DNA of 64,000 nucleotides from Polytrichum commune. Taxonomy: Eukaryota > Streptophyta > Polytrichopsida > Polytrichales > Polytrichaceae. This document shows, in pieces, positions 2,878 to 46,735 of the stretch; the stretch's first letter is position 1, and each line of letters begins with the position of its first letter. The stretch is from assembly GCA_950295325.1 (NCBI GenBank), contig OX485805.1, positions 13,550,501 through 13,614,500 on the forward strand, written 5' to 3'. The notes beneath the pieces are model-generated. The model saw nothing but the letters and a program-made list of their open reading frames with translations, was not told the origin of the DNA and did no database searches. The position numbers were made by a program, and so were the translations under genes.

Positions 2878-2983
2878 TGTCGTGTAAATAGCCATCGTGT
2901 GTCACTGCAGCTCGAGTACCAACCACCACTAACAAACAAAACTAAAACATAGCAAAGTCACACATAAACAACACACCTCGACA
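2878..2983. repeat. 106-bp direct repeat, copy 1 (outer edge of element)
   Basis: TGTCG...CGACA segment, the partner of 3320-3425. Forms the left border of the inserted DNA. Flanked on the outside by GGGT. Confidence 0.8.
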
Positions 2984-3317
2984 GAGAAGGAAGAGAGTAG
3001 AACACTCATAATAGCTCTAAATCTCTCTTCAAATGCACACAATTAGTCAAGCTATCTCTCACTCCACCAAGGGAGAATCCAAGAGTGTAAGTAGGGGAAG
3101 AAGAACTCAAGATTTATTGCAAAATCATGCAATCTACACCTCACACAAGCTCTCTCCACACATTAACTCACAAGACTTGACTTGGCAAGAATGCCAAGCC
3201 AAGGAGGAGGCTCCTCACTTAGGAGCCTTCCTCTCCACATCTAGATTCATCCATCCAAATCTAGATGGATGAAACCCAACGGATATGGTGCGGCTTTCGA
3301 CGCCGCATACCGTGACA
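2984..3317 (-). repeat. Truncated 3' LTR of the DNMT retrotransposon
   Basis: Matches 12494-12827 with two substitutions noticed (near 3053 and 3162). Starts, on the minus strand, with TGTCACGG like the 5' LTR but stops after 334 bases at the outer 106-bp repeat. The rest of the LTR (about 850 bases) is missing at this side. Confidence 0.85.
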
Positions 3318-3319
3318 GC

Positions 3320-3425
3320 TGTCGTGTAAATAGCGATCGTGTGTCACTGCAGCTCGAGTACCAACCACCACTAACAAACAAAACTAAAACATAGCAAAGT
3401 CACACATAAACAACACACCTCGACA
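3320..3425. repeat. 106-bp direct repeat, copy 2 (next to polypurine tract)
   Basis: Begins TGTCG and ends CGACA, LTR-like inverted ends. Nearly identical to 2878-2983 (one difference seen: C/G near base 16). Sits between the polypurine tract and the LTR fragment. Could be the LTR of a TRIM-like miniature element or a segment copied by template switching. Confidence 0.8.
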
Positions 3426-3436
3426 TGCCCCCCCTC
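3426..3436 (-). other. Polypurine tract of the DNMT retrotransposon
   Basis: On the minus strand GAGGGGGGGCA lies immediately before TGTCG, the normal position and composition of a plus-strand primer next to a 3' LTR. The adjacent TGTCG belongs to the 106-bp repeat, not to the LTR found at the other end. Confidence 0.7.
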
Positions 3437-3709
3437 AGCTGACTATGGAGTCCCGCCAAGCAGCTAGGACCAATGCCAATTTAAAGGGCATGGATCATGA
3501 AAGATTGCTCCGCAACTAACTAGTGTGGTAAACGTTATTCCAAGGAACTGTAGGCTGGGTGCAAGGTGAGCCCCATCCTTAATCGCCTCTGATGTTTGGC
3601 CATCAGATCCCAAAGAATTAAATCCACCGCCTCATGTCGATTGCGTCTCTAAGCCATAACTCTTCATTTTCCATTTGGACAAGCACAAGATGATGAAAAC
3701 CACACAGGA

Positions 3710-6700
3710 TCATTGAGTACGATTGGTGGAAGCACCAAGTACCGAAGATCCTCGACAGCGAGGACAACTCCACTGTCCAGATGGTAGAGAAGTCAAGGGT
3801 GGCCGCAAGCATGCCATGTGCCAACCGCGTTGACACTGATCACACAAGAGCATAGTAGCTGCTCCCTTCTTGTCTCCACACACAAAACATGGAAGACCCT
3901 CTGGTACGACGGCCAGTTCAGGATGAACTGTACCCTCAATAGGTAGATGACATGGGGCACAGTTTTTGGAATGCTCGCGACATTCCCTGCCATCCTTGCC
4001 TTCCAACAACAACAAACCACTTGGCAACACCTCCTTCACCCGAAGGATAGTGCGCCCCGCCCTGACATCCAATGTCGTAGGCGCCTCACGTTGAAGATAA
4101 ACATAATCCCGTTGCCGAAATCTCCGCAACTGAGGCCGGTAAGCACCACTACGAATGCGTGCATAACGCAATGTGTCACGGTGCTGAGCAATGGACAAAT
4201 TCTCCATGGCCATAGGCATGGCCCTCTGGAAGAATTGAGCCCGCTCCTGCAAACACTCTGCCCAAAGGTCTGGGTCATCCAAGTTCACAACAGGAGCTAG
4301 TTTTTCCCGAATAGAACTCGGGAGTATAGGCTCACGTCCATACAATAATTGATACGGGCTGTAGGATGCCAAAGAGGCCTGCCTACTAAATCGATAGCCC
4401 ATAGCAATCCATGGCAACATAAGGTCCCAATCCCGGTGGCTTCCCCGAAGTAATCCATACTTCCTCAAGCCACGCTTGGTTGTCTGAACAACCCGTTCAG
4501 CCAAGCCATCTGCCTCCGGATGATCCCGAGAGGTGGTGCGGTGATCTATGAGAGCTTTAGTGCACAACTCCTCAAAAGCACCAAGGAACTCCCTCCCTTG
4601 GTCCGTCAACACCTCAGCTGGTGCTCCAAAACGTGCTAACACACGATCCAAAAAGGCGGCCGCGGCCAACTCTGCAGAGTTCTGGGGTAGAGCAACAAGC
4701 TCAATCCACTTGCTAAAATGCTCGACCATCACCAAAACGTACTTTGCTCCACGTGGTGTAACCACCAACGGCCCTGCAAAGTCCAGCGACCAACGGTAGC
4801 CTAATCCCATGATAGGTAAGGGCTGTAACTGAGGTGATAAGGTGTTAAAGCTAGACCTGACCCGGTCACAAACTTCACACCTCCCGACATATGCAGCCAC
4901 CTGCTGATACATGCCAGTCCACCAATATTGGCCACGCAACATCGAATGTGTCCTGCGTATGCCAAAATGGCCAAGTTCCTCGTGCACTTGTCGCACCAAG
5001 GAGGCCCTCTGATCCGGCCTAGGAACAATACGCCTTGTCCCATCCGGCCACAATCGAAATAACAAACCGTTCTCCCAACGGAACCTTGTTATTCGATGTC
5101 CAATCCTATCTTTTTCCATTGCCGAAATAGACAAAGGAAAGGTACCATGTTGAAGCTTATGCAATACGGGAAGATCCTCCCATATATCCGCAATAGCTTG
5201 AGGCCGATCAGTCTCATCATCCGAGCCCTGTATCGGAATCTCAACAGATGAACCAGAAAATAAAGTGAGGTAGGCAGCCGCGTGCCAACCTGGAACCGCC
5301 TCTCGATCACAATCTCCATGCCACCTGGCCCCGGTCAAGTCCTCATCCGAAGGACTTGGATTGCGTGAGAGTCCATCTGCATCCATGTTGGTAATCCCAG
5401 CACGGTGTACCACCTCAAAGTCATACTCCTGGAGCAACAAAGCCCACCTGGCAAGCTTGCCAGTAAGCTTATCCGACTCCATGAGCCACCGTAACGGCTG
5501 ATGGTCAGTCACCAAAGTAAAGTGTTGACCATAAAGATATGGCCGGAAATGGGCAATAGCCCAAACCGCCGCCAATGCTTCTCCCTCATATGACGAATAA
5601 TTTGCCTCCGCCGTGTTGTTGCTTCGCGACGCGTAAGCAACAACATACTCCCGGCCAACGTCATCTTTCTGAGTAAGAACTGCTCCCAAACCCAATGAAC
5701 TCCAATCTGTATGCAACTGGAAAGATTTGGAGACATCTGGACGTCGAAGCACTGGAGCCGTACCCAGTTTCTGCTTCAATGTCTCAAATGCCTGTTGCTG
5801 CTCACGACCCCAAGACCAAGGTTGGTCCTTGCTCGTGAGAATGGTGAGCGGCTTGGCAATCAAACTAAAGTTTTTGACGAATCGCCGATAGTAATTCGCC
5901 AAGCCCAAGAAAGCACGAAGTCTCGGCACATCTACCGGTGCCGGAATCTTCTGCAATGCGTCCACCTTAGCTTGTTGTACCCCAAGACCTCCTGGAACAA
6001 TCATATGTCCCAAATATGCCAACCGGTCATGGAAAAACTTGCACTTGCCGTGGTGCAAGCGCAATCCCCACCGCTGCAACCGTTCAAAAACGGCTTGCAG
6101 ATGCCTCACATGCTCCTGTGGTGTTGTACTGAAGATGATCACATCGTCTATGTAACACCGAGCAAAGGGCAAGCCAGAGAGAACCTGATCCATCACCCGC
6201 TGAAACTCAGCGGGTGCATTCTTCAGGCCAAATGGAAGAAACTTCCAATGATAAAGTTGATCTTTCCCATCTTGATCAACTCCCCAAAATGCGGTCTTCA
6301 CCCGATCTCCCGTAAGTAATGGAAGTTGGTGATATCCGGATCTCAAGTCCAAAGTGCTGAAGACCCGAGAAAATCCGATTGCATCGAACAACTCCTCCGG
6401 GATTGGCATGGGATACCGATCCGACTTGGTCTTCCGATTAACTGGACGGTAATCCCCACACATCCGCTTCTCCGTCCAATTGCCAAAGATATCCTTCTTC
6501 GATGGCATAACCGTAGCACAAGCATACTCCCCGTTGGAAAGTTCGATTAGCCCTGCTGCCAAGAGCTCTCGGCAACGAGCCTGAACGCCAATCCGCTCGG
6601 AAACACTGAGCCTGTAAGGTCTCCGAAAAATGGGATGGTCGTCCTCCAACTGAATGTGGATGGGTTTTCCTTTATAACCTTCAAGATCCTGAAGGCTAAA

Positions 6701-6856
6701 AGCAAAACATCTACGGTACGAGCGAATAAATGCTCGTACCTTACATGCCTCAGCACCAGTAAGACGAGGGCCTAATTCAAGTGGCCAATCATCAAACTCT
6801 GTAGTCTCCCTCTCCACCAAAGGAGAACTACCTGATGCTGGCACAGACTCTAATTG
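3710..6856 (-). CDS. Reverse transcriptase-RNase H-integrase-PHD polyprotein (pol, ORF2 of gypsy element)
   Basis: Open for about 1048 codons after the TAG at 6859-6857. Numbering from the GTG at 6844: reverse transcriptase about 60-300 with the YIDD active site at 231-234; RNase H about 370-495 with HTD (380), E around 420 and TDHQPL (447); integrase zinc domain H621/H626/C656/C659; integrase core with LDF D688, TDQG D748 and AER E783; and a C4HC3 PHD finger at 986-1030. All catalytic residues are present. Order RT-RH-IN defines Ty3/gypsy. There is no ATG start, so it is probably made by read-through as a Gag-Pro-DNMT-Pol fusion of about 2400 residues. No separate protease is present because it lies in ORF1. 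Confidence 0.92.
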   Translation of the reverse strand, partial: QLESVPASGSSPLVERETTEFDDWPLELGPRLTGAEACKVRAFIRSYRRCFAFSLQDLEGYKGKPIHIQLEDDHPIFRRPYRLSVSERIGVQARCRELLAAGLIELSNGEYACATVMPSKKDIFGNWTEKRMCGDYRPVNRKTKSDRYPMPIPEELFDAIGFSRVFSTLDLRSGYHQLPLLTGDRVKTAFWGVDQDGKDQLYHWKFLPFGLKNAPAEFQRVMDQVLSGLPFARCYIDDVIIFSTTPQEHVRHLQAVFERLQRWGLRLHHGKCKFFHDRLAYLGHMIVPGGLGVQQAKVDALQKIPAPVDVPRLRAFLGLANYYRRFVKNFSLIAKPLTILTSKDQPWSWGREQQQAFETLKQKLGTAPVLRRPDVSKSFQLHTDWSSLGLGAVLTQKDDVGREYVVAYASRSNNTAEANYSSYEGEALAAVWAIAHFRPYLYGQHFTLVTDHQPLRWLMESDKLTGKLARWALLLQEYDFEVVHRAGITNMDADGLSRNPSPSDEDLTGARWHGDCDREAVPGWHAAAYLTLFSGSSVEIPIQGSDDETDRPQAIADIWEDLPVLHKLQHGTFPLSISAMEKDRIGHRITRFRWENGLLFRLWPDGTRRIVPRPDQRASLVRQVHEELGHFGIRRTHSMLRGQYWWTGMYQQVAAYVGRCEVCDRVRSSFNTLSPQLQPLPIMGLGYRWSLDFAGPLVVTPRGAKYVLVMVEHFSKWIELVALPQNSAELAAAAFLDRVLARFGAPAEVLTDQGREFLGAFEELCTKALIDHRTTSRDHPEADGLAERVVQTTKRGLRKYGLLRGSHRDWDLMLPWIAMGYRFSRQASLASYSPYQLLYGREPILPSSIREKLAPVVNLDDPDLWAECLQERAQFFQRAMPMAMENLSIAQHRDTLRYARIRSGAYRPQLRRFRQRDYVYLQREAPTTLDVRAGRTILRVKEVLPSGLLLLEGKDGRECREHSKNCAPCHLPIEGTVHPELAVVPEGLPCFVCGDKKGAATMLLCDQCQRGWHMACLRPPLTSLPSGQWSCPRCRGSSVLGASTNRTQ
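3755..3889 (-). other. PHD finger at the integrase C terminus
   Basis: Spacing C-x2-C-x11-C-x2-C-x4-H-x2-C-x14-C-x2-C, with Trp two residues before the seventh Cys, is a textbook C4HC3 PHD finger. It occupies the place where chromoviruses carry a chromodomain. PHD fingers bind histone H3 tails, so a role in choosing integration sites is plausible inference. Confidence 0.88.
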
Positions 6857-6859
6857 CTA
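6851..6859 (-). promoter_or_regulatory. Leaky UAG stop in tobamovirus-type context (TAG CAA TTA)
   Basis: ORF1 ends in TAG followed directly by CAA TTA. This fits the CAR-YYA hexanucleotide that promotes UAG read-through in tobacco mosaic virus and related plant viruses. The downstream pol frame is the same frame as ORF1, separated only by this stop. The pol ORF has no ATG near its beginning; the first possible start-like codon is a GTG at 6844. Read-through is therefore the simplest way to express pol and would give a Gag:Gag-Pol ratio set by termination efficiency. Confidence 0.85.
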
Positions 6860-9800
6860 ATGAGAGGAGGGAGCATTAACCATGCCCCCAGTCTCAGTGC
6901 TAGCACTAGAGTCTGGCATTTCTTCATCACCACCAATATGTGATGATGAAGCCACCACCAGAGGCGAAGAAGCCGAAGCAGTGTAAAAATGTTGAGCTCG
7001 AAGCTCCTCCATTACATGCTGCTCGAATTGAGAAGTTTGTTCGGCTTCTCCAACCATGGCATGAATTCCCTCCTCAATGGATGTGGACCGTTGTGCCCCC
7101 TGACCAGAGTTCTCTGCCCCCAGAGGCAACCACTGGTCACCACAATGTCTTTGCCATGAAAGACATAAACCAACAGTCCACACCATAGTATGAAGATCCA
7201 TGGCTTGGCCCAATACGAAGCGTCGTTGGCCTTCAGAAAGGCCAGGAGCTGCGGTGGTGCCAGTGCGAAATCCCATTGCACGCTCCCGTTCATCTGCCAA
7301 TGGTTCGGTGTGGGTTTTGGTGTGAGCATCCCACACCATACCTGGCCCCTGATCGCGGAAAGCAAATGACTGTGGAAACGTCATGAATGTGGGAAAAGCC
7401 CGCCGTGGTGCCCCCACTTTGTTGACCAATGCCAATGGGGGTAAATCATCTCGGACAACCGGCAAAGAAGTCCGGTTTGGATCCAAGATGTTGTCCACCT
7501 TTTGATCAAAAGGTGGAGGCACTGCAGAAAATGCTGCAGCTAATGTAGATGATGGTGTGAGGTTGGTCCAAATCCACCGAGGCCGGTGGGCATAAGAACC
7601 AATGCTCGCAGCATCTACAAAAATTGGATCTCCAAGGTGTTGACGAACATAATGATCGCCTTCCACCACCTTGGCCCGGGAGTCTCCGAACATAGGTACA
7701 TTCTCGAAAATATATGCTGGAGGGGAAAATTGATGGGAATACCACCACTGCATGAGACGAATGAGGTCCCAAAATAGACTAGACCTGGTATCCTCTAGTC
7801 CTCCGCCTACTCCAGCACGTGAATGGCCCTGGCATGGCCATCCCGCAATCACCATATCCACTGGACCCAAATGTCGTAAATCGGCCTCACTGATGAGTGT
7901 GACATCACGAGGGAGACGTGAAAAACACCCACGAATGGCAGTTGGAGGTAACTGCTGGGGGTACAATACCATCAATTGGTGAAGATGATGACGAGCCACA
8001 CGGGTGGACACTTGAGAGTTGTCCACATAGACATATCGTCTAACCGTGAGGCCAGCCTCCAATACGGCCGCTAAGCCTGTGCCGATGCCCCCAAACAGTT
8101 CCACCAAAGTAATTCCCGCGTCTGGCGGCTGCCATAAAATGGGATGTGCCAATGCCGAGAGGACACCCGGTATGACCGGTGTCCTAGGAGTGAGAGAGTG
8201 AACAATATTCTCGCACCTCCGAAATAGCTCGGCGGAATCACGCCAAGGAGGAAGGGGATCCTTGGGATGGCGCACCAATGCACCCTTAGGTGCCATATCC
8301 CGTGGATCGTCTGTACTCCCCATGAACGCCAATGACTCATCCAACAATGCGGAACCATAAGGCAATGTGTCCACCATAGCACCACATCCAAAAACCATAG
8401 ATAATGGTGCTATGGTCGCGGCTGCCGCGAAAGCCACGGGAATAAGTTCCCTGCGGCCATCCCCAACCGACCAACCTGGTCGGATCCACACCTCTTCAGT
8501 CCAGTTGTCCAAACCAAAACCAAGAGGATAAAGTGCTTGCTGACCAACTAAAATGTCATAGTTGGTCGCATCCGTCACCGCACACCTAAGAAGAAGAGGT
8601 GCGGGTGAATCTCCAGGCTTCACTCGGAAGCTAAGCTGTAATGGCTCCCGAGTATATCCCGTGGCCCGCTCCACGTGACCAATGGATGTGACAATGGTGA
8701 ATGGACAGGGAGCCAAATCCTCGGCCGTCAACCCCAACTCTTGGGCAAGCCTCTTGCCGATCATAACTGGCTGTGCCCCTGAATCCATCATCACACAACG
8801 GGGAGAAACCTGAGTAACATTGCTCCCAGTGCGACTGACCACCAAAATGCCGGTATCATTCACCATCCGTACAACGCCAGGTCGAATGCCTTGACGCTCG
8901 CGAGCAGGTCGAGCAGCTACATCGGATAGATAAGCTGCGCCTGCAGAGGCTGGTGAATGATAAGATGTGGTTGGCTCCTGGCCATCCAAGGTGTGTGCGT
9001 CAAAAGACGCAATGGCCTCCTTCGCAAGCCTCGCTCGCCGTTTGGCGGCTTCCTCAGGATCCTCCGTGGTAGGAAGGTCTGCGGTTGCTTGAGCCACAGT
9101 AAGAGAAGACGGGGTTGCCTTCCCCTCCAATATCCTACCTGCTAGGTAAAAAACCTTAGCTGGTTGGATATCGGATGACGACCAATCCATTGCTGTGAAC
9201 AAAGGCGTGTGCAACACTTTGGATGCCAAAGTGTGCACCACGTCGGTCGACGGACTCGAAGCCTCCAAGCTCGAATTGCGACCACTGACAGATTGGGCAG
9301 CATCAGCCAATCCAAAAGACAATGGAAGGCGTGCCTGACCAATTTGATCCGCGGGACTATTGTGCCGAGCTCGTAAGCTGTCCACAGACTCTCCTGTGGT
9401 CGAAGGCGTGGCTCGTGACACGGTTTGAGCACGTGTCATAGCGGCAGAACTCACCACCTCGCCCGAGGCTCCGAACATATAGTAATCCGGAGTGGAAGAA
9501 CTAGCCTGAGCTGCGGAAGAAGACGGTGAGGCCAAAATTTGGCCGGATGACGCCAAGCTTTTGAACCTCTCCTCCATGGCTCCAATCTTCGCCTCCAACG
9601 TCTTCTCCCGGTCGGAAGAAGGACGTTTCTCAGGATGGAGAGCGAAGCAGTTCTCCACCGCGTGATTGTTCCGCCCACAATGAGAACACTTCAACTGTTT
9701 GGGTAACTGATTACCCGTCCCCTTCGTCGAGCCCTTAGCGGGAACAAATGGTTTCCGCTTCGGAGGAGTGACGTTCTGGGCTTGCCTATGCTTCGAAGGA

Positions 9801-10939
9801 CAATCCTTCTTAGCATGGCCCGCCTGTCCACAAGACCAACAATGCAAGATCTTGTCCACCTCTGCCTCTGCCAACCCCGCAGCCGCAACTGGAACCTTCC
9901 GGGATTTGCTAGAATCCACTAGCATGGACACCAAGTCAGTGGCGTCGTGCTGACACAAGGCACGATCACACTGCTCAACAATGGTGAAAGCTTCCGCAAG
10001 TGTCGTTCGGCCACCATGATCCATGATGATCCTGGGTAAAGCTAAGTCAATGAGGCGTTTGTCAAGCTTTGACAAAAACACCTTTACCAACTGGCTCTCG
10101 GCGAAAACACCTCCAGATTCCCTAGCAAACCTCGCCAACCTCGTGTACATGGTACGAGGCGTGTCATCTTTCTCCCGTCGAAAGTCCTGGATACGCTGCA
10201 TTTGATCGCGGCGGAAGCCTCCATATTCCGCCTCCAAATGGAGTTGGAATTCTTGTAGAGGATCAAAACCCGGCGGAGCTCCTAAAGAAGCTAATGCCGC
10301 CTGGGTAGCCTGGGCATAACGTGACAGTGGAAGAATGGGGCTCGAGGTACTCGCCGTTGCGGGAGCTTGGCCCTGAGCCGTGGGATTGATAGGAAAAGCT
10401 CCCTCCACATCCACTTCGTATACTCCCTCCTGTACCTCCGTCTTAACCTCAGGGACGGCCATGAAACTGGAAGCTGCGCCTTCCTTCAATGCAGATACCA
10501 ACTCAACCCGAGTCTCCCAGTACCGCTCGACCTGGCGCAGTTCCATCCAATGAGTGTCCGTCCACTGCTCATAAGTTTGGAGAGCTTCATGCTCCAAATG
10601 TTGAGGCAAAAGCTCGAACGCATACCAATCGTTAAAATTGGTATTGCGTTGGCGTTTCTCTCGCATCCACGTACGAAACCGGATTTTCCAGTCTTGCAGA
10701 GAAATGGTCCCTGCTCGACCGGAAAACCGGTCCCGTATCCCTCCCCTAGTCTCCTCCTCCATATCGTCAAAGGTTCCCACCCACAGGACGTGAGACCGAG
10801 TGATAGTCCCCCACGCCGAAGTAGGCTGAAAAACCTCGTTGGGTGCTACCACTGGTTCCACGTCCGAGAGGTCCGAGGGATGACCTTCCGATGCTCCTGG
10901 GGACGGAGAACGATAATGTTGAGTACGAGTTGTAACCAT
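6857..10939 (-). CDS. Gag-protease-DNA (cytosine-5) methyltransferase polyprotein (ORF1 of gypsy element)
   Basis: 1360 residues from ATG 10939-10937 to TAG 6859-6857. Residues about 70-335 look like Gag. Two CCHC zinc knuckles lie at 367-380 and 418-431. An aspartic protease follows with DSGA at 719-722 and YDILVG at 794-799. Residues about 943-1260 form a complete C5 methyltransferase: motif I LVELFGGIGTG (945), VYVDN (970), motif IV GWPCQGHS with catalytic Cys1036, motif VI FENV (1078), motif VIII HRPRW (1118), an ERERAMGF segment (about 1217) and motif X LGQAMDLHTM (1243). GIGTGL, the LGPVDMVIAG approach to PCQ and the His-Arg-x-Arg motif VIII are closest to DNMT3, the de novo CG methylases. 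Motif order is not permuted, unlike plant DRM. All key residues are present, so activity is plausible but unproven. Pol follows in the same frame after one stop. Confidence 0.92.
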   Translation of the reverse strand: MVTTRTQHYRSPSPGASEGHPSDLSDVEPVVAPNEVFQPTSAWGTITRSHVLWVGTFDDMEEETRGGIRDRFSGRAGTISLQDWKIRFRTWMREKRQRNTNFNDWYAFELLPQHLEHEALQTYEQWTDTHWMELRQVERYWETRVELVSALKEGAASSFMAVPEVKTEVQEGVYEVDVEGAFPINPTAQGQAPATASTSSPILPLSRYAQATQAALASLGAPPGFDPLQEFQLHLEAEYGGFRRDQMQRIQDFRREKDDTPRTMYTRLARFARESGGVFAESQLVKVFLSKLDKRLIDLALPRIIMDHGGRTTLAEAFTIVEQCDRALCQHDATDLVSMLVDSSKSRKVPVAAAGLAEAEVDKILHCWSCGQAGHAKKDCPSKHRQAQNVTPPKRKPFVPAKGSTKGTGNQLPKQLKCSHCGRNNHAVENCFALHPEKRPSSDREKTLEAKIGAMEERFKSLASSGQILASPSSSAAQASSSTPDYYMFGASGEVVSSAAMTRAQTVSRATPSTTGESVDSLRARHNSPADQIGQARLPLSFGLADAAQSVSGRNSSLEASSPSTDVVHTLASKVLHTPLFTAMDWSSSDIQPAKVFYLAGRILEGKATPSSLTVAQATADLPTTEDPEEAAKRRARLAKEAIASFDAHTLDGQEPTTSYHSPASAGAAYLSDVAARPARERQGIRPGVVRMVNDTGILVVSRTGSNVTQVSPRCVMMDSGAQPVMIGKRLAQELGLTAEDLAPCPFTIVTSIGHVERATGYTREPLQLSFRVKPGDSPAPLLLRCAVTDATNYDILVGQQALYPLGFGLDNWTEEVWIRPGWSVGDGRRELIPVAFAAAATIAPLSMVFGCGAMVDTLPYGSALLDESLAFMGSTDDPRDMAPKGALVRHPKDPLPPWRDSAELFRRCENIVHSLTPRTPVIPGVLSALAHPILWQPPDAGITLVELFGGIGTGLAAVLEAGLTVRRYVYVDNSQVSTRVARHHLHQLMVLYPQQLPPTAIRGCFSRLPRDVTLISEADLRHLGPVDMVIAGWPCQGHSRAGVGGGLEDTRSSLFWDLIRLMQWWYSHQFSPPAYIFENVPMFGDSRAKVVEGDHYVRQHLGDPIFVDAASIGSYAHRPRWIWTNLTPSSTLAAAFSAVPPPFDQKVDNILDPNRTSLPVVRDDLPPLALVNKVGAPRRAFPTFMTFPQSFAFRDQGPGMVWDAHTKTHTEPLADERERAMGFRTGTTAAPGLSEGQRRFVLGQAMDLHTMVWTVGLCLSWQRHCGDQWLPLGAENSGQGAQRSTSIEEGIHAMVGEAEQTSQFEQHVMEELRAQHFYTASASSPLVVASSSHIGGDEEMPDSSASTETGGMVNAPSSH
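7160..8113 (-). other. DNMT3-like C5 methyltransferase domain (within ORF1)
   Basis: Domain footprint inside the Gag-protease ORF. The catalytic cysteine codon is TGC at 7834-7832 in the Pro-Cys-Gln motif. The domain follows the protease with a linker of about 140 residues and precedes a tail of about 100 residues that is probably disordered. No stop or frameshift interrupts it. Known retrotransposon DNMTs from other lineages were reported to methylate CG de novo; whether this one does is inference. Confidence 0.9.
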
Positions 10940-11638
10940 AAACCCACAATGGGATGGTCACCGAATCAACAACCCAAATGAATTAGTATCCAAGTACAAA
11001 GAGAAAAAGGGTCAAAGGCAACCTGCACCTGCAACCACCACCAAAACTTATGGTCTGCTGGTCATTAACCCAGCCTCACCACAAGTGAAAACAAGCACCG
11101 CCCACTTGGTGCACAAACAAAGGTCCCGTCGGTCATTAATCCGACCTCACCTCCACAGTACCCTATCACAATCTAGGACTACACAAAATGGGGCAGTGCT
11201 AGAACACTCCAACACTACAGCCCGCCACAGGGGAAGGTACCAAAACAAAATACAAGGAACAATGCAAAAACAGCACTGGATCCTCTTCCCCAAAACAACA
11301 CTTAAACAAAAATTGAAAGCGACCGCGACCAACCGGCACCCGCCTGCGGTTGGTGGTCAAAATGTGGAGCCCCTGTTGCTTAAGAAAAGAAATTGCACAA
11401 GCACATCTCTCATTTAGTACTACAACATGAAATCCTCTCCTCCCTGAAGTCCCTAGAATATGTGTTTCTTAACACAATATGCTCTACCCCTCGAGAATCC
11501 CTCAACAATCTATTCCTAAATAAATTATAATAGTGGGAAAGCCCTAAACAAGCTTGAACAACCCTCTTGCTATCCACTATGACACAAGAAAAGCTAAGTT
11601 AAGCTAAATTAAATTAAACTAAACTAAGCTCGCCACAA
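10940..11638 (-). other. Untranslated leader of the DNMT retrotransposon
   Basis: About 700 bases between the proposed 5' LTR and the first ATG. No convincing ORF. It holds two related segments (around 11060 and 11131 on the plus strand) sharing GGTCATTAA followed by CCTCACC, possibly a structured packaging region. The function is not shown by the sequence. Confidence 0.5.
11620..11635 (-). other. Candidate primer binding site of the DNMT retrotransposon
   Basis: On the minus strand TGGCGAGC begins three bases inside the proposed 5' LTR end; TGG is the complement of a tRNA CCA tail. I could not identify a matching tRNA, so this is tentative. Confidence 0.3.
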
Positions 11639-12827
11639 TGTCATATTTAAACTATGCTTGGGAAGGACCGAAAACTAATTTAAAATGAACCGGTTGGCTT
11701 TTACAATTAACCGGTTGTAGTTCAAGTTTGCTAGAAAACTACATATCTTTTTAGCGGAATTTGTATAATATATCTCAATTTAATAACCGGAACTCGGAGA
11801 ATGTCAACAAGTAAGCGGTTGGACTTACAAACATTAGGGTCTCAATCGGTTAATGCCCAAAAATGTCCCGACTTCCTGGCTGCCTCCCTTGCAACCAGGT
11901 TCTCAACCAGTTATGCCCAAAAATACTCCCGTTTTCCTGGCTGCCGTCCTTGCAGCCAGGACATCAACCGCTTGTGCCCAAAAAGACTCCCCGATACCCG
12001 GACTCCCCAACAGTGTCCCCGATACCCGGACGGCCGGGCAGCAGGTCGGTCAGCGGAACGGGTAGCGGCCGCCGCTAGCCGCTAGTTGGACGCCGATTGA
12101 CGCCGCACCAGAGCAGAAGGGCAGCCAGGAGCTCCAACTCTTGGCCGCTCTTCTTCTTCTCTTAAATTTTTGTTTTTTTTTTTTTTTGTTTTTGTTAAAA
12201 ATTTGATCCCTTTGGAGGATGAAGAATGCTCCTACACCTTCCACTTCACAAATTCACGCTTGTGGGCAACTCATAACAAAGAATTCCGTGTAGTATTTAG
12301 AGATTTTCTCACCACAATTCACCTTGAAGTGACATTCACAAGCAAGCATTCTTCATGTTGCTTCGCAAATCCGCGTGTTCTCGCTCCAGAACTTCACAAC
12401 TTGTTCGTCACTCCTTGTCTTCACGCCCTCCTTTCCGCGTTACATCTCAAGAATGAAGAAGAAAACATCAAAGATGAAGCATTCTTGCCAAGTGAGAAGG
12501 AAGAGAGTAGAACACTCATAATAGCTCTAAATCTCTCTTCAAATGCACACAATTAGTCAAGCTATCTCTCACTTCACCAAGGGAGAATCCAAGAGTGTAA
12601 GTAGGGGAAGAAGAACTCAAGATTTATTGCAAAATCATGCAATCTACACCTCACACAAGCTCTCTCCACACACTAACTCACAAGACTTGACTTGGCAAGA
12701 ATGCCAAGCCAAGGAGGAGGCTCCTCACTTAGGAGCCTTCCTCTCCACATCTAGATTCATCCATCCAAATCTAGATGGATGAAACCCAACGGATATGGTG
12801 CGGCTTTCGACGCCGCATACCGTGACA
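11639..12827 (-). repeat. 5' LTR of the DNMT retrotransposon
   Basis: Bounded by TGTCA at 11639-11643 and TGACA at 12823-12827, giving five-base inverted ends. Positions 12494-12827 match 2984-3317 almost perfectly, which anchors this end. Diverged relatives lie at about 13440-14101 and 51655-52198. The inner boundary at 11639 is inferred from the terminal motif and a following TGG, not from a second full LTR copy. Confidence 0.6.
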
Positions 12828-13079
12828 GGGTAGTGACAATGGGAGGTTGAATAGCGTGGTAGTTAGCGTAGATGTGAGTGCCTATGACCACAAGGTGTGG
12901 AGTGTTCTTAAACACTGATTACCTTGTGGCATTTGAATAAAGAAGTGGGTGTTTTATGTTAAAAGACTATTGGAGTGACTGTAGCCCACTGGTGGGTTCT
13001 AGCAATATAGACGAATACATGTTGGCCTTGGGCTCTCACCCGGACTACGACGCATAAGGGTGGGGGTTTACGATCTTAT

Positions 13080-13439: not shown

Positions 13440-14101
13440 ATTTTTTTTTGAATTTTTTTTTTGAATGAATGAATGAATTGCGTTTGAATGCAAACAAGAA
13501 TAGTTCCTCACAGCTCAATGCCACGAATTCAAGCTTGCAGGGAATCAATTGACATAAAATTCCGTGGAAAATTCAACACCTTATTACCACAATTCACCTT
13601 GAAGTGACATTCACAAACAAACATTCTTCATGTTGCTTCGCAAATCCGCGGTGTTCTCGCTCCGGAACTTCACAACTTCGTGACTCATTGTCTTCACGCC
13701 CTCCCTTGCGTGTTACATCTCAAGAATGAAGAAGAAAACATAAAAAATGAAGCATTCTTGTCAAGTGAGAAGGAAGAGAGTCAAACATTCATAAGAGCTC
13801 TAATCTCTCTTCAAATGCACACAATGAGTCAAGCTATCTCTCAGTCCACCACGGGAGAATCCAAGAGTGTAAAGAAAGGGGAGAATAACTCAAGATTTAT
13901 TGCAAACACATGCAATCTTCACCTCATACAAGCTCTCTCCACACACTCACTCACAAGACTTGACTTGGCAAGAATGCAAAGCCAAGGAGGAGGTTCTTCA
14001 CTTAGGAGCCTTCCTCTCCACAAATAAGATTCATCCATTCAAATCTAGATGAATGAAACCCAACGGATAAGGTGCGGCCGTCGACGCCGCATACCATGAC
14101 A
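13440..14101 (-). repeat. Diverged LTR of the DNMT-retrotransposon family (probable solo or truncated)
   Basis: Ends ATGACA at 14101, matching the LTR terminus at 12827, and aligns over most of 12312-12827 with many substitutions. No internal retrotransposon sequence adjoins it. Its divergence shows the family has been active for a long time. Confidence 0.75.
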
Positions 14102-15943: not shown

Positions 15944-18002
15944 TCAAAGAGCCAAGACTTGACAAGCACCTCGAGGTAATGGATCAGCAAACTGAATTTT
16001 CCCAGTTATGTCCTCATAAAATCGCAACATAGCCGATGATTTAACAGAATCTGTCTTGGAATCATTCACCTCTACTATAGCAACAGCTGCCCGGCTTGTC
16101 CCGACCCGTGGTAGCAAACCTGTGCCAACTATACAAAGCCTTCCACCCAAGCTTACCAGCTCTGGGCCCCAGGCCAAAACAGGTGCAGAATCCTCCAGAA
16201 CTCCTGTAATGGTTTCCCAGCAGTCTTTCTTTACATTATAAACAGAGATTTCATTCTTGCCTTCAAGGGAATGCGAGTCGCCAACTGCATACAGTTTTCC
16301 ATTCATGGCAGCAGTTTTTGACTGCCAACCTGTTCCCAATTGTCAACCTGTTAGAGTATCCTGCAAACTAACATCTCAGAACAATTTTGACGATTGCATT
16401 CACAAACCTATGGACAGTATCAATGTCCATGGCTGTACCCAGAAGACTCCACACTCAGTCATAAAAGTCTACAGATACACACATCTACAGTACAAGCTTG
16501 TGAAGCGTTGAAATGTATGATGGTGGCCAGTTTTGGGACCCATAATGGAGATGTTTTCTGGATGCTGATTTGTTAGTGGAGGCCCACAGGCCTGAACCGG
16601 TCACCCAGTATGAATACCCAAACTTAAACAGGAAACACTGCGTCTGAATTTCCTGATCAAACCAGAATAAGGTGGCACCACAGAAAAAAGAGGTGCCAGT
16701 AATCCCAATGAAGGCTATTGTCTTGTCACTTATACAACATACTCATTATGGTCATTTGTACTGTTGAATGTATGCAGCTTTCTATGGTTAATGCCGTAGA
16801 CAAACCAGTGCAAGTCACTTGAGATATGATTCTTGGGATTGAAATCACCTGTATTGAGGCCGTGAGCCATGTAGACCCACTCATCCATTTTAGGATCATA
16901 GACAAGTCCAACCAGATTCTCGCTTGAAGAATTCACAACATAAAACTTATTATCAAGTACAGCAGAGTCATAAAGCTCCATAGATATTTTCATTGAGGAA
17001 ATGAGGCTCCATTGGTTCTTTTCAGGGTTATATGCCTCCGCAGTTGGCCCTGCATCCTGGTCACGTTCTGTGAACCCGCCAACTACATACAGCTGGTCGT
17101 TGATAACACCTGCTCACACAGATGTAACAAAAGGGCTTGAGAACAGTGCTCCTCTTCGTGTTGCACACGTCCAAGTCTGTTCAGATTTCTCAGCTTCATA
17201 CAACAAAACCAAAAATCCCATATGAATGCCTACTGCACATGGAGAACCTGAAGACAGTAGCTCTATTTGTCACAAATGAGTTCTATAAATTCTACATATC
17301 AGAATCCATGCCAACCTGCCATTCTGGTGCAAGAAAATAAAAGGTCCTCTACCTGCCATGCATTTGGCACGTGGGATGTTCAAAGGGGCTGCCTGTTTCC
17401 AGCAATAAAGTTGCATATCAAAATATGATACAAAGTTGCAGGCATTGCCATTGTGCAACTGTCCTCCCACTACAAAGAGCTTTCCATCCACCACTGCAGA
17501 TGCGGAGTTGCCAGCAGTGCGTTGTTCATTGGGTAAGGGGGGCAGCGCAAACCAACGATTCGATAGTGGATCATACCCATGCCACACATTGGCCCTTGCC
17601 AGATCCTAGGGAGGTACAATACGTTGAAGGTTAGCCTAGAATTGATAAAATGATATTCCATATGTCTACCACTTCCAAGTAAAGTTCATGCAGATCTCAC
17701 ATTCAATACAAGGTTGTATTTAGAAACAATGAGATAGGATTCACCTGAGTCCAAAGAAAAAGCCATTCTTCTGTCACACAGAGTTCTTGCCGGATGTCAT
17801 ACAGAACACGAGTTTGTAAAAGTCTGCGCCAGCTGCGGCAAACTGCACTGAGCACTGCGTGCTGAGCACGGGGTACACGTGCCAGGCAGAGTAGAGCAAG
17901 CTCATCTGGAAGTGCAGGGATGAGATCTTTGCATGGTTCTTCCTTACTTTTGCATTGCTCTTCCTTGCCTCTACGCCTTCTTGACCCAGTCTCTGTTGGC
18001 AT
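15944..18002 (-). CDS. F-box/kelch-repeat protein (four coding exons)
   Basis: Splicing exons 18002-17745, 17605-17353, 17109-16849 and 16329-15944 (all GT-AG) gives one frame of 385 codons. Residues about 25-60 form an F-box (IPALPDELALLCLARVPR), expected to bind SKP1 in an SCF ubiquitin ligase. The rest holds kelch repeats (VVDGKLFVVGG, GVINDQLYVVGG, MNGKLYAVGDSH), a beta-propeller for substrate capture. The TEEWLFLWTQ segment after the F-box is typical of plant F-box/kelch proteins. The substrate is unknown. A more upstream in-frame ATG at 18086 would add 28 residues. A 5' UTR exon probably ends at 18883 (AGGTAAG donor). The gene diverges from the neighbouring plus-strand gene. Confidence 0.85.
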
Positions 18003-18254
18003 TTTTACCTTCGATGCACATAACATACAATCAGCATAGCCATGGCTGCACACAAGAGATATCTGCTTGTAGACGAGATTATCCAATTGCCCCTAAACCT
18101 TGTAAGCTTATGGAAGTAGCACTTGGCGGCGCATTTTTACCTTGGATGCACAAAACACACAATCGGCATAGGCATCACTGCACGCAAGAGATATCTTTTA
18201 GATAGACATGATTATCCAATTGCCCTTACGCCTTATAAGCTTATGGAAGTAGCA
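18001..18254. repeat. Tandem duplication (about 125 bp) upstream of the kelch start codon
   Basis: 18001-18125 and 18130-18254 share TTTTTACCTTSGATGCACA at the left and AAGCTTATGGAAGTAGCA at the right, with scattered differences between. Both copies contain a donor-like AAGGTAAAAATG on the minus strand, so the duplication may have altered 5' splicing or the start of translation. Confidence 0.8.
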
Positions 18255-19010
18255 ATTGGCGGCGGATCCAGCATGGTTATCTAGAGGATTTCCTGTGTCT
18301 GGAAAAAAAGCGCTACATCGATCCTCTCTTTTGTGACGTAGATGAACTCAATTGAGAAATATAAGGTTGCCAATTAAGGAGAGACACACAACATAGTTCA
18401 ACTGGTCGTTTTGATGACCCCGACATTAATCTAATACCAACCAATTACGAAAATGTTACTGCTCTTAAGACATGACTTCTTCCAGCATAAAACCCTGAAG
18501 CCAGACAAAGAAAACATGTAATCGCAGTAAAGGTGACGTATGTTTCAGCCATCCACCCTCGCATCCGTGACATTCAGAAGCTACTTTCGTCTACTGACCA
18601 CAGCAGAGAACATTAAAGTGAGGTAATTAACTACAGTACGAAAAGAAGGAACGCACAACCGGAAATTCAACAATTCCTTGCTTAACACTCTGAACTGCCA
18701 ATTTGGGAAGCACCGAACCTTCCCGAGATTGAAATTCAGGAGGCGGTTGCACAACAACTACCAATTACGCATTGCACAAAAGAGATCAAGCCTAATTCCA
18801 AGCTCCACAACCTCCAAACCCTAACCTACACCTAGAAACAGAGGAAATTTTCTTAGAGAGAAAGAAGAAGCGGATCGCTTACCTGATGATGAGAATCTGG
18901 GAAGCACTGTAAGAGAACATCGACAATTACACGAACAAGAATCACCGCATCGGCAAACGGAAGGCCGCAGCCGAGCACAGACGTGACAGACTCTGGAATA
19001 AGAGACAGAC

Positions 19011-20244: not shown

Positions 20245-21796
20245 ATGGCGCAGCAACCGCCAACCTCACAGCCGAGTCGATACTTAGTTCCTTGGACTAT
20301 TTTTATCATCGCTTTCTGCCTTCTCCACCTGGCAGGTAATTTATGGCGCCTTTTTCCTAACTTACTACTAACAAACACATAGCCAGGTTATCGTTGTCAA
20401 AGGAGTTCCTTAGAAACAAAAAAAATAGCCTAACAGTACCACAGTTCTTATCCTCTTTTCTTTCTGCATCAAGCAATGGTCTTCACGGGGGCGGGGGTTT
20501 GATTGTTGATGACCGGGATTAAATCACATACATGCACTTATTTGTTATTATGCTACGATTGTTATCTCGATAAGCCAGGAAGGGGCCAGAAACTTTGTAA
20601 TCATCATTTGTAAAGTGATTCTTGCATATTCAACAGACAGTTAATTTATCGTTGTTAAAAGAGTTCTTTAGAAACAAATAATGGCCAATAGTACTACAGT
20701 TCTTACCCTCTTTTCTTTCAGGAGAAAGCAAATGGTCTTTCACGAGGTGGGCCCTTGTCTGTTGATGACCAGGATTGAATCGCAATCATGCACTTATTGA
20801 TAGTCTGCTACGATTGTTATCTCGATAAGCTAGGAAGAGGCCAGAACCTTTGTAATCATCATTATGCGAAGTAATTCTTGCATATTCCTAATTTGCGGCA
20901 TGCTCTATTTCAGCCAAGGAGGCACGAAAGCAACTAGGAGATGAAGTTGCATCAAAAACCGGCAAGGACGAATTTGGCGACTGCCTCGACTTCGGATTTG
21001 GTTCAGTAGTATGTGCAGTAAAGCAAGGCTCGAAGCTGTACACTAACAACATTCGCGCAACTATTGTTGAACGATCAAAACAGAAAGCATATCAGATGGC
21101 TCTACAGTCTGCAGTGTCAGAAGGGCTGCCAATGTCAGAAGCCTCGTTAAAAGCTGGAAACATAGCAGATCTTGCTGCTAAGGCAAAGTCCAAGCAGGCG
21201 AGAAGAATATCAGGACCCTTGTTTGCCGCTATCTGGGACTCGCTTGAGGTCTTGTACTACGGAGGGACACTTGCCGAGGTTTCAATGCGAGCCTCTGGAA
21301 CACTGTATGGGACCTGGAAGGGTGGTGTAGTGGTAAACATATCAATTTCACCAATTTCTTTCTTGTCTCTCTTGTCATTTTTTGTCTGTGTATAAGTTAG
21401 TATTTCACAGTTACGTCCGAATATAGGATTGATTTTAAACTAAAAATACGGTGTTACAACTCCTCACGTCGGGTTTTTCTGTTGCTTTCCTACTGATGAG
21501 ATTTATAACTTGTGATCTGACAGGGTGATAATAGACTTGGACGCATCGGCTATCTAATCGGTACACAAGTGGGAAGCTGGGCAGGAAGTAAGATTGGACT
21601 AATGTGTTATGATATTGCCAAAGCCGTTCAGTTGGTCAGCACAGAAGTTCAAGAATTTTTCACCGGCACTGTCGAGGATGGCGAGAATAATGGCGAGAAT
21701 ACTGGAGAATATACTGGCGAGAATGGCGAGAATGGCGAACCTGTTGAATTCTTTCCAGCCGATTCAGCTGACTCAGATGATTCAAATGAATTCTAA
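20245..21796 (+). CDS. Uncharacterised membrane-anchored protein (three coding exons)
   Basis: Exons 20245-20335, 20914-21332 and 21524-21796 join in frame (GT-AG introns) to 260 residues. I chose the ATG at 20245 because only that frame continues into exon 2; an acceptor CAG at 20214-20216 suggests a spliced 5' UTR. Residues about 18-33 are a hydrophobic segment (TIFIIAFCLLHLA), a signal anchor or signal peptide. The middle is helical and alanine-rich. Residues about 150-200 carry regularly spaced glycines (SGTLYGTWKGG, GRIGYLIGTQVGSWAG), glycine-zipper-like and possibly membrane-inserting. The C terminus is acidic with GEN(x)GEN repeats. I do not recognise the family and assign no function. 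Confidence 0.75.
20383..20890 (+). repeat. Tandem duplication inside intron 1
   Basis: 20383-20630 and 20640-20890 are diverged copies of one unit of about 250 bases, sharing GCTACGATTGTTATCTCGAT and TTTGTAATCATCAT. The second copy contains TTTCTTTCAG, a possible cryptic acceptor. Confidence 0.85.
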
Positions 21797-23494: not shown

Positions 23495-24157
23495 CTACCT
23501 GACAATATACTGGTATTGATCGTCCTCTCGGATGATGAAAGAAAATACAGAGGAGGCAACCAAGAGCACCAGGAGGAGTGTGCCTGTAAAGAGGAGCTGC
23601 CAGAACCCACCTGGGATGAACCAGACCGCAACAACACCCACCAGACCTGCCACCATGAACATCTTGGAAGCAAGGGAATGGACCTCTTCCCACACATGGG
23701 CACTCTGCAGAGTCCATGGGTCACGAATCCCAACCACATGGTTCTGCTCAACATAATTGAAAGCTGCACCAAGCAATGCCAAAAAAATGCTGAAGAGGAA
23801 CACAAGGGGAGTGGTTCCCAGAGTATGCCCTGTAACAGCAGCCCAGATGACAATGATTTGGAGAGCAGGGGAGAACAAGCTTGGGGTGATGACCACAGCA
23901 CTTATTGCAGCTTCGGATGAGGATTCGAGATGTTCACAAAGAGGGTCACACCTTACAACAAGAGCTAACATCAGGGTAAGCACAATTCCCAAGATGGGGA
24001 TTAATACCATGCCAACCTCTCGTGGCATCTCGGGGCTTCCCCAGAATTGCATGTGTTCAGGCAGCCATACCCACGAGCCTAACCCTGCGGCCAAGCTTGC
24101 GAGACTTGCAGCCCCTCCCACTTTAAGGGCATTGGTTGAGAATCTCGACATTGTCAA
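23495..24157 (-). CDS. SdpI/DUF1648-family polytopic membrane protein, bacterial-type
   Basis: 220 residues, uninterrupted from ATG 24157 to TAG 23497-23495. Residues 31-58 fit the DUF1648 pattern (WLPEHMQFWGSPE before a helix). Residues 137-160 carry the SdpI signature: EQNHVVGIRDPWTL and VW..VH. About six transmembrane helices are seen (near 8-31, 50-68, 87-108, 115-133, 164-182, 187-210). Bacillus SdpI is an immunity protein against the SdpC cannibalism toxin and a sensor for the SdpR repressor; many bacterial relatives have unknown roles. A plant-nuclear copy between intron-bearing plant genes suggests horizontal transfer. An acceptor-like TTTTTTCCTCCAG on the minus strand near 24331 hints at a spliced 5' UTR, that is, a domesticated transcript. 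Function here is unknown. Confidence 0.85.
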   Translation of the reverse strand: MTMSRFSTNALKVGGAASLASLAAGLGSWVWLPEHMQFWGSPEMPREVGMVLIPILGIVLTLMLALVVRCDPLCEHLESSSEAAISAVVITPSLFSPALQIIVIWAAVTGHTLGTTPLVFLFSIFLALLGAAFNYVEQNHVVGIRDPWTLQSAHVWEEVHSLASKMFMVAGLVGVVAVWFIPGGFWQLLFTGTLLLVLLVASSVFSFIIREDDQYQYIVR

Positions 24158-37812: not shown

Positions 37813-39265
37813 TGTGAGGCCAAACCCCCCACCCTTAAGCGTCCGTAGTCCGAGTAGTGGGTTTGGGCTCACATTCCTCCGCGGTATTGGATTTGGACTT
37901 GGATGAGTCCATAGTGCAAGGTTCACCCTTCAAGTGGTCTTGGATTTAACTAGCTCCTTCATAAACCCAGCTCCTTTATAAACCCAGCTTCTTAGCTTCT
38001 AACTAAACAAACCCAGCTCCTTCATAAACCCAGCTCCTTCATAAACCCACAACTTTGTAGTTGTAATCCCCAACTACCTCACTAATTATTCAAGCCCTTA
38101 ACTAATCTTCCTACCTAATTTCCCTAATTCTACTAACAACCCCTTTCTAATCACACAATTCTTCTCTAATCCTAAAATCCTAAAATCCTAGAGAGGAGAG
38201 GGGGAGAGAGAATTTCCTAACTTCACTAAGACTAACTAATCCACACAAGTATATTTTTGCACTCATCACAACATCAAGTGCTCAACTCTTAAACATGGAA
38301 CTTGCAACCACGTGTATTCAAAACATGAACTTAAAGTACCACAAATTGGAATCATGAATTAACTTTAAAATCCTTCACGTCAACACTAATTCTACCAAGA
38401 GGTCAAGCCCTCTTCAAGGCTAACAAGCCTTGGCTCTCAAACTAAAAACTAAGCACACACATGTGCTCCAATATGGCTTCCCACACCCACACTTATAACT
38501 CGTGGGGTGCCTTAGAGCACAAAGGAAAGAGAGGATGAGTGAGGGAAGAATGAGGGATTATATAGTAAGCTTGAGGGGGTGAGCACCCTCAAGGCTCACG
38601 ATAAGCCCTTGAGATTTCCTCCTACTTAGTAGGCGCCAATCCTATCTTCTAAGCCTTCCTCCCTCAAATGATCAACAAGGATCCTAATTCGAACATTTAA
38701 CTAGCCTTGGCTTTCTACCTACCACACTTTACCAAACTTGGGATGCTTCAACCCAAACTTAGCCTCCTTCGCTTTCCGCCGCCATAACTTTCTCCCCTTA
38801 CTTTCCCAAATCGTCGCTCACCACTTAATTCAAACCACGATGCTTAACTCGTGATTTGATTGGTGCTTTGAGAATTTGCTTATCCTCCACCTTGCATTCT
38901 TCCTTGGGCCTTCCCCATTAAGTGGCCATGATGAGGTGGTCCACTTGTGCGCTCCATGTGATCCTCCATTCATCCCAATTCGAATGCACTTGCCTCTTGA
39001 GTCACTTTGGTTGTCTCCATCCATTTGTACTAGCCTACTCACTAACTACTCAATCCAAGTTCTCCTTACCTATCCTCATTCACTCAAATCCTTCCGAAGG
39101 TAAAAACACAATAACAACTCACATCCTAGCCTCTTACAACATGGTACTTCTAAGACTAACATTTCACTCTTTTTATATTTTTGTGAAGTAACATGCTACT
39201 TCAAAGTGCATCAACTAACGTTTCAAGGGTCTAAGACTAAATGTGGGCACCCTTTTGGGCTCACA
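37813..39265 (-). repeat. 3' LTR of the RT-less gypsy element
   Basis: TGTGAGGCC...GGGCTCACA, 1453 bp, appears identical to 45278-46730. On the minus strand a TATATAAT motif near 38560 is a possible promoter TATA box. Confidence 0.95.
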
Positions 39266-39326
39266 TAATTGGCGACCATCGGGGGATGAATCCAAACATC
39301 TCTTGCTCCAAGGGTAAGTTGCCTAG

Positions 39327-45253: not shown

Positions 45254-45273
45254 CGCTCCCGGCGGACGCACCA
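45254..45273 (-). other. Primer binding site of the RT-less gypsy element
   Basis: Four bases inside the 5' LTR the minus strand reads TGGTGCGTCCGCCGGGAGCG. Its complement looks like a tRNA 3' end: T-loop TTCG, CCCGG stem, acceptor strand and CCA. The tRNA species is not identified; TGGTGCGTCC would fit an Arg tRNA start, but this is tentative. Confidence 0.65.
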
Positions 45274-45277
45274 ATTA

Positions 45278-46730: not shown

Positions 46731-46735
46731 TAGAT
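46731..46735. other. Target-site duplication TAGAT (right)
   Basis: Partner of 37808-37812; a 5-bp duplication is normal for Ty3/gypsy integration. Confidence 0.95.

Follow-up and report, generated by a model that had tools for sequence, protein, structure and literature searches.

What is a DNA methyltransferase doing inside the Gag-protease reading frame of a plant retrotransposon? The question is raised by a stretch of 64,000 nucleotides from Polytrichum commune (contig OX485805.1, positions 13,550,501 to 13,614,500), referred to below as the window, in whose coordinates all positions are given. Judged from its letters, the minus strand of the window carries a Ty3/gypsy retrotransposon that is young, has intact coding frames and belongs to the lineage of KnitGypsy-Dnmt3, a published relative from Klebsormidium nitens (de Mendoza et al. 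2018, PMC5890265). The kind is already known from that green alga; what the present element adds is a readthrough-type stop codon, a PHD finger, a self-complementary primer site and a B|GC|A palindrome between two of its terminal repeats. A first-pass annotation of the window had singled out the methyltransferase and was silent on the stop, the finger, the primer site and the A-coding-B-A-B order of the ends. In the titles, abstract openings and passages covered from the open PMC literature, no methyltransferase-bearing gypsy element is reported from land plants, and no readthrough, self-priming or PHD finger is reported for such elements. The papers cited here (PMC5890265, PMC6317226, PMC4132726 and PMC12344493) are drawn on from portions of their text.

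The DNA of the element was compared with that of two old partial copies in the window and of one relative, contig L001. This contig is binned as 'Synechococcales' (cyanobacterium AVDCRST_MAG81) and carries a methyltransferase-gypsy element with 127-bp identical ends. Because gag, methyltransferase, stop, pol and PHD finger are all present, it is read as mis-binned eukaryotic DNA, and P0077, labelled 'Candidatus Obscuribacterales', is taken as another such case. The body of the window element, with its open reading frames (ORFs), is laid out as follows.

2878 to 12827, minus strand: whole element, with TGTC...GACA ends (repeat comparison)
2874 to 2877: target site duplication GGGT, left copy, 4 bp
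12828 to 12831: target site duplication GGGT, right copy, 4 bp
10958 to 12478, minus strand: untranslated leader (frame limits and repeat comparison)
6857 to 10939, minus strand: ORF1, Gag-protease-methyltransferase, first Met to TAG (open-frame list)
9800 to 9841, minus strand: CCHC zinc knuckle 1 (sub-threshold Pfam match and pattern)
9647 to 9688, minus strand: CCHC zinc knuckle 2 (pattern only)
8468 to 8845, minus strand: aspartic protease region with DSGA (sub-threshold Pfam matches; L001 70% identical)
7163 to 8122, minus strand: DNMT3-type C5-methyltransferase domain, ORF1 residues 946-1265 (Pfam, phmmer, profile)
7832 to 7834, minus strand: catalytic Cys codon, 1036 from Met and 1042 from the stop (alignment)
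3710 to 6856, minus strand: ORF2, Pol, with reverse transcriptase, RNase H, integrase and PHD finger, including its stop codon (open frame and Pfam)
5312 to 6604, minus strand: reverse transcriptase-RNase H, YIDD present (Pfam and motif check)
4517 to 5017, minus strand: integrase zinc-binding region and DDE core (Pfam and motif check)
3755 to 3889, minus strand: PHD finger at the integrase C-terminus (Pfam, 1.4e-10)

Both frames are open, and ORF2 lies in the same frame as ORF1 with one TAG between them. Counted from the preceding stop, the ORF1 frame has 1366 codons (10957-6860, minus strand) and runs from a gag region through the two CCHC motifs and the aspartic protease region to the C5-methyltransferase. 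The methyltransferase had been placed inside a Gag-protease ORF, and this is right because the CCHC motifs and the DSGA region share its frame, as sub-threshold Pfam matches and patterns indicate. The order reverse transcriptase-RNase H-DDE integrase and the 4-bp duplication are those of Ty3/gypsy elements, whose duplications are 4-5 bp long (PMC6317226). Equal long terminal repeats (LTRs) at both ends, also typical of that group, were not found: only repeat A is common to both. The PHD finger occupies the position of the chromodomain of chromoviruses, and no chromodomain match was found at the integrase C-terminus with Pfam up to E = 1. Two of 334 positions differ between repeats A1 and A2 and one of 106 between B1 and B2, or 3 differences per 440 bp of duplicated terminal sequence (0.7% divergence). 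Since both pairs are nearly identical the insertion is recent, as the first-pass annotation had proposed, and it is flanked by the GGGT duplication.

The methyltransferase domain had been put at 7160-8113 on the minus strand (residues ~949-1266 of the 1366-codon frame), and Pfam, phmmer and profile searches agree. The Pfam DNA_methylase match lies above the cut-off (E = 2.3e-11), and by sequence DNMT3A and DNMT3B are its nearest relatives of solved structure (phmmer, 6.5e-10). A profile of 11 element methyltransferases compared with solved structures matches DNMT3A at 2.6e-30, followed by 4onj_A, a 'DNA methyltransferase' (5e-15) and a tobacco DRM, then by HhaI (1.9e-13) and DRM2 (3e-12), the DRM matches being limited to profile positions 7-136 (motifs I-IV). 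Among solved C5-methyltransferases, the domain is by sequence closest to DNMT3. Its motifs are unpermuted (I-IV-VI-VIII-X) and read GIGTG, WPCQGHS, FENV, HRPR and a C-terminal ERERAMGF..LGQAMD, so that the full set of catalytic motifs in DNMT3 order was correctly recognized, as was Cys1036 when counted from the first Met. Its motif IV, PCQ, differs from the PCN of DNMT3A and the animal DNMT3 family. The ADD domain is a feature of animal DNMT3, and a Pfam scan found none in ORF1.

A protein search with the methyltransferase region of the window returned 76 proteins, from Klebsormidium, Closterium, Monoraphidium and several Marchantia entries among others, and 73 of them (3 were dropped for coverage) were aligned with the window domain. 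Among the non-gap rows of this 74-row alignment, the catalytic Cys is present in 71 of 71, the Glu of ENV in 73 of 73 and the last Arg of motif VIII in 74 of 74. Glu replaces the Pro of motif IV (ECQ for PCQ) in 27 of 72 non-gap rows, e.g. P0033, P0034 and P0039; these 27 include 14 of the 18 rows with the methyltransferase after the reverse transcriptase. Between the window and L001 the domain is 66% identical, the differences per codon position are.28/.18/.60, and the nonsynonymous divergence (dN) is 0.27 with synonymous divergence (dS) saturated. Identity is 46% in the stretch that precedes the domain, 37% in the tail after it and 90-92% in the reverse transcriptase-RNase H and integrase regions. 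This codon-position pattern, the dN and the region identities show that the methyltransferase is under purifying selection, laxer than that on pol.

The domain had been described as captured by this element. Its distribution says otherwise: a large gypsy lineage, with the Marchantia and Closterium entries among its members, has long carried it, so by sequence the domain is old although the insertion is recent. Those entries are annotated merely as hypothetical or unnamed proteins. An alignment-profile search, in which 8000 candidates were scored, found 141 proteins, one from Sphagnum among the best 120 listed. The pol search, also with 8000 candidates scored, gave 4204 matches; among the best 120 the closest relatives are P0197 (88%) and P0198 (78%), and the closest named ones come from bryophytes: P0281 of Marchantia (64% across 40% of the query), P0220 of Calypogeia (63% across 70%) and P0256 of Riccia (62% across 48%). 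The proposed relation to the Klebsormidium element is borne out by K. nitens protein P0066, which is 42% identical over 59% of the methyltransferase query and 47% over 86% of pol. KnitGypsy-Dnmt3 shares with the window element a gypsy pol, an unpermuted DNMT3 domain under purifying selection and the order A-coding-B-A-B, termed DIRS-like in the legend to its Fig. 4; unlike the window element, it has the methyltransferase in the Pol polyprotein ORF rather than at the end of a Gag-protease ORF before a readthrough-type UAG (PMC5890265). The main text of that paper has no mention of PHD, readthrough or Gag, and the portion covered has no self-priming or circle model. A later paper restates the 2018 findings on streptophytes and dinoflagellates, with mention of Copia and DIRS (PMC12344493). 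A phage or bacterial origin is disfavored: 53 IMG/VR loci gave partial matches of 25-43% identity, DNMT3 is far closer, and IMG/VR searches with the single methyltransferase protein or with pol gave no match.

The 312 fetched proteins fall into several architectures. In 25 the protein is gag-protease-methyltransferase and ends there, and in 35 the methyltransferase runs unbroken into the reverse transcriptase. In a third type (P0033, P0039, P0052 and others) a homologous methyltransferase is joined to a homologous pol and PHD finger but stands between RNase H and integrase; 19 such proteins have the PHD finger, one lacks it and five more are cut off after the methyltransferase. A quick-method reverse transcriptase tree (127 rows, with 28 dropped for coverage) unites the 19 usable elements of this third type in one clade with support 99, together with one row without a visible methyltransferase. 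In a quick-method methyltransferase tree (117 rows, 101 dropped for coverage, DNMT3A outgroup) the 25 rows of this type and four methyltransferase-integrase fragments group with support 88, not starred. Methyltransferase and reverse transcriptase distances are correlated over 42 proteins (r = 0.68, 0 of 5000 permutations as high) and more strongly over the 23 elements with the methyltransferase before the reverse transcriptase, as in the window (r = 0.92, 0 of 2000). The simplest reading of these sequences is one early acquisition of the methyltransferase in an old streptophyte gypsy lineage, followed by one relocation. This reading is weakened by the 19 elements with the methyltransferase between RNase H and integrase, for which r is 0.14 and 314 of 2000 permutations are as high. 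Repeated capture of similar enzymes is a possible alternative history, because the methyltransferase tree contained DNMT3A but no plant host DNMT3 and both trees were made by a quick method.

A scheme in four steps can be proposed for how the element multiplies. Transcription would start in repeat A at offset 124, and the first 15 nucleotides of the transcript would pair with a site just past A1 to serve, in the manner of Tf1, as the primer for reverse transcription. Most ribosomes would stop at the UAG and release Gag-protease-methyltransferase, and a minority would read through UAG-CAAUUA to make Pol, placing the methyltransferase inside the particle at Gag dose. Reverse transcription from the primer site and the polypurine tract would yield cDNA with B-GC-A at both ends and then a two-LTR (2-LTR) circle, which the DDE integrase would cut at GACA|GC|TGTC, dropping GC and inserting A-coding-B-A-B with a 4-bp duplication. 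The methyltransferase would methylate CG in the cDNA or circle before insertion, the PHD finger would steer the integrase to chromatin with a suitable mark, perhaps unmethylated H3K4, and the new copy would be tolerated as already silent DNA. Taken as a whole (self-priming, readthrough, circle integration and pre-insertion methylation), we regard this scheme as slightly better than an even proposition. Its most specific form, in which a self-primed, Gag-dosed, DNMT3-methylated 2-LTR circle would be opened by the DDE integrase at the LTR-internal GACA|GC|TGTC and inserted permuted (A-coding-B-A-B), PHD-guided and pre-methylated in chosen chromatin, is put forward tentatively, at less than even confidence.

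The ends of the element are unusual. Along it follow A1, the coding region, the polypurine tract, B1, GC, A2 and B2, with the target site duplication at the A1 and B2 ends.

12494 to 12827, minus strand: terminal repeat A1, element 5' end, 332/334 identical to A2
3426 to 3438, minus strand: polypurine tract CTGAGGGGGGGCA adjoining B1 (similar G-run before B in L001)
3320 to 3425, minus strand: repeat B1 (repeat comparison)
3314 to 3323: GACA|GC|TGTC palindrome where B1 meets A2, the proposed point of integrase action on the circle
2984 to 3317, minus strand: repeat A2 (repeat comparison)
2878 to 2983, minus strand: repeat B2 at the 3' end of the element; A2|B2 joins the U5 end to the U3 start

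Both the integrated order and the A2|B2 joint follow if two B-GC-A ends were joined in a circle that was then opened at B|GC|A, and the element may therefore insert from a circular copy. The junction site GACAGCTGTC lies within a block that is identical at 20 of 20 positions between the window and L001; blocks near the junction are 50-80% alike, and two blocks about 250 nucleotides upstream reach 90%. The predicted U5 end reads CTTCTC, without the usual CA. On its polypurine side repeat B starts with TG in the window and with CTTGAGGG in L001, as though the integrase did not act on this end. One IMG/VR locus, L057, matches an 18-mer of the junction exactly; the match was set aside as chance, as that locus has no significant similarity to the element.

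The same order could also arise by DIRS-like templating, in which the internal B-A is copied to complete the ends. This would yield the same product as a circle, and according to PMC5890265 the same layout is found in DIRS elements, among them the dinoflagellate SymbioDIRS-Dnmt3, which like the window element carries a DNMT3 domain in an A-coding-B-A-B retrotransposon. SymbioDIRS-Dnmt3 differs in having a tyrosine recombinase and is an independent acquisition according to that paper. No tyrosine recombinase match was found in ORF1 or ORF2 with Pfam up to E = 1, and a DDE integrase and a 4-bp duplication are present instead. Because the A2|B2 joint also runs exactly from the U5 end to the U3 start, end templating is credible but rather unlikely.

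For the priming of reverse transcription, 15 nucleotides that exactly complement part of the element's own leader form the likely binding site. The predicted parts are these.

12690 to 12704, minus strand: predicted self-primer GCATTCTTGCCAAGT, predicted transcript 5' end, A offset 124-138
12479 to 12493, minus strand: predicted primer-binding site ACTTGGCAAGAATGC, adjoining the A1 end, 15/15 complementary to the self-primer
12623 to 12628, minus strand: AATAAA within A1 at offset 200, 3' of the predicted start of the transcript
13522 to 14101, minus strand: older partial copy comprising A and leader, 86-91% similar to the element
51797 to 52199, minus strand: older partial copy of the element 5' part, 83-86% alike, match beginning at A offset 124

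When the site is shifted by one base the complementary run is 14, and 300 mononucleotide shuffles of A give runs of at most 9. In L001 the corresponding pair, ACATCTTTGTCAAGT and ACTTGACAAAGATCT, is paired at 14 of 15 positions, and four paired positions, three of them in an unbroken 13-nucleotide core, have changed on both sides relative to the window. These are the sole inverted 11-mers more than 20 nucleotides apart in the 1979-nucleotide non-coding stretch of L001. Each of the two old copies in the window keeps 14 of 15 complementary positions, and the second is matched from the opening base of the proposed primer onward, which is what a transcript starting at that base would lead one to expect. 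These pairings suggest Tf1-like self-priming. Priming of this kind is known for Tf1/Sushi, plant Tcn1 and TAR elements; Tf1/Sushi and Tcn1 are likewise gypsy elements with a primer site complementary to their own transcript, but they are chromoviruses, and neither 'PHD' nor 'methyltransferase' occurs in the source (PMC6317226). A tRNA primer was considered and rejected: none of six tRNA-type primer-site strings stands at the primer position, and two short ones (TGGAGC and TGGTGC) occur elsewhere in the leader. Beyond the second old copy and on the other strand lies a LINE-like stretch that includes an RNase H domain (53752-54225).

The enzyme most likely methylates the element's cDNA or circle before insertion, a role proposed from its anatomy and sequence constraint. 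The first-pass annotation had referred to reports that retrotransposon-borne DNMTs methylate CG de novo; this holds for SymbioDIRS-Dnmt3, for which CG methylation was shown in yeast, and does not extend to the Klebsormidium gypsy enzyme, which gave none there (PMC5890265). With the same anatomy, the enzyme might instead act on the host, its spill-over methylating host DNA or competing with host silencing. The predicted dose is high and accidental host methylation is discussed in PMC5890265, but fusion to Gag-protease suggests confinement to the particle, and we consider action on the host unlikely. More doubtful still is a methyltransferase fold that serves Gag as a nucleic-acid or cofactor-binding part without catalysis. 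The Glu in motif IV of 27 of 72 rows and the lack of methylation by the Klebsormidium enzyme in yeast are in its favor; the invariant Cys, ENV Glu and motif VIII Arg among non-gap rows count against it, as does the standard PCQ of the window enzyme.

The PHD finger could guide the integrase to its chromatin target. Its closest solved relatives include fingers of CHD4, PHF12, KMT2C/D, ATXR5, DPF3, KDM5 and UHRF1. Several of these read the unmodified histone H3 tail, as does the ADD domain of DNMT3.

The dose of the enzyme depends on the codon between the two frames.

6851 to 6859, minus strand: TAG CAA TTA, stop with CARYYA readthrough context; ORF2 continues in frame
6744 to 6845, minus strand: region past the stop predicted to fold into an RNA stem in both window and L001 (weak evidence)

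A CARYYA sequence after a stop is the tobacco mosaic virus-type readthrough context (PMC4132726). At the same junction L001 has TAG CAA TCA, though the ORF1 tail is merely 37% identical, so that both elements whose DNA was compared have a shared frame and TAG-CARYYA. All 15 related ORF1 proteins examined (P0001-P0015) end after the methyltransferase, and the close pol relatives P0197, P0198 and P0200 (1033-1043 aa) begin just past the stop position. The stem begins 12 nucleotides past the stop codon; the consensus of window and L001 has 36 pairs with 13 one-side changes, one both-side change and none broken, and the single folds have z scores of -1.7 and -4.4. It is weak evidence because the consensus derives from the same two coding sequences. 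As ORF1 holds the methyltransferase before a readthrough-type UAG, the enzyme is probably produced with Gag, at Gag dose and not at that of Pol. A nonsense mutation could be present in any one copy, and 35 of the 312 fetched proteins pass from methyltransferase into reverse transcriptase without a stop, yet the TAG with CARYYA at the same place in L001, the 15 ORF1 proteins and the three pol relatives make it very improbable that the UAG is an inactivating change that leaves this copy dead for Pol.

Several observations count against the scheme. The primer, junction and readthrough signals are backed by the DNA of one relative, the mis-binned L001. Those 35 unbroken proteins, some perhaps gene models, mark the stop as a feature of part of the lineage and not a general one. 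The start of transcription at A offset 124 is a predicted position, and AATAAA was looked for in L001 and not found. In both the window element and L001 the primer sits in a hairpin, which could explain part, though not all, of its complementarity. The specificity of the PHD finger is suggested by resemblance. No activity is known for any gypsy-borne enzyme of this kind, and the authors of the yeast assay call the negative result for the Klebsormidium enzyme inconclusive (PMC5890265). CpG is not depleted over the element (0.72, against 0.50 and 0.52 in two flanking stretches); it is low in A1 (0.37), 0.60 in the methyltransferase and 0.77 in a second gypsy element of the window. As a sign of self-methylation CpG depletion was dropped, not being seen over the whole element even though A1 alone is low; the values fit a young copy and lend no support to past methylation.

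What had been a curiosity of methyltransferase-bearing algal retrotransposons becomes a testable system with a young, open-frame copy in a plant genome, from whose sequence hypotheses on expression, priming and integration can be drawn and tested singly. If the circle model is true, an internal circle junction can serve a DDE integrase, a route long set aside for retroviruses. If the cDNA is methylated before insertion, the element would show a transposon using its host's own silencing mark.

The remainder of the window holds further repeats and genes. A second LTR element (37813-46732) has 1455-bp LTRs (37813-39267 and 45278-46732) that are identical over their whole length. Its open 1687-aa frame (39327-44390) contains gag, protease and integrase, and Pfam found no match to reverse transcriptase or RNase H in that frame. 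This element has apparently lost these domains in frame and moved recently, perhaps mobilized in trans. The location beside intron-bearing plant genes given in the first-pass annotation is plausible, with F-box and kelch pieces at 15.9-18.1 kb. Two-copy tandem duplications occur at 17999-18264 (132 bp, overlapping the F-box frame) and at 20388-20887 (255 bp), and an AT-rich 26-bp unit is repeated in tandem about 19 times at 431-919. A frame at 23498-24157 encodes an SdpI/YfhL-family membrane protein (Pfam, 4.8e-13).

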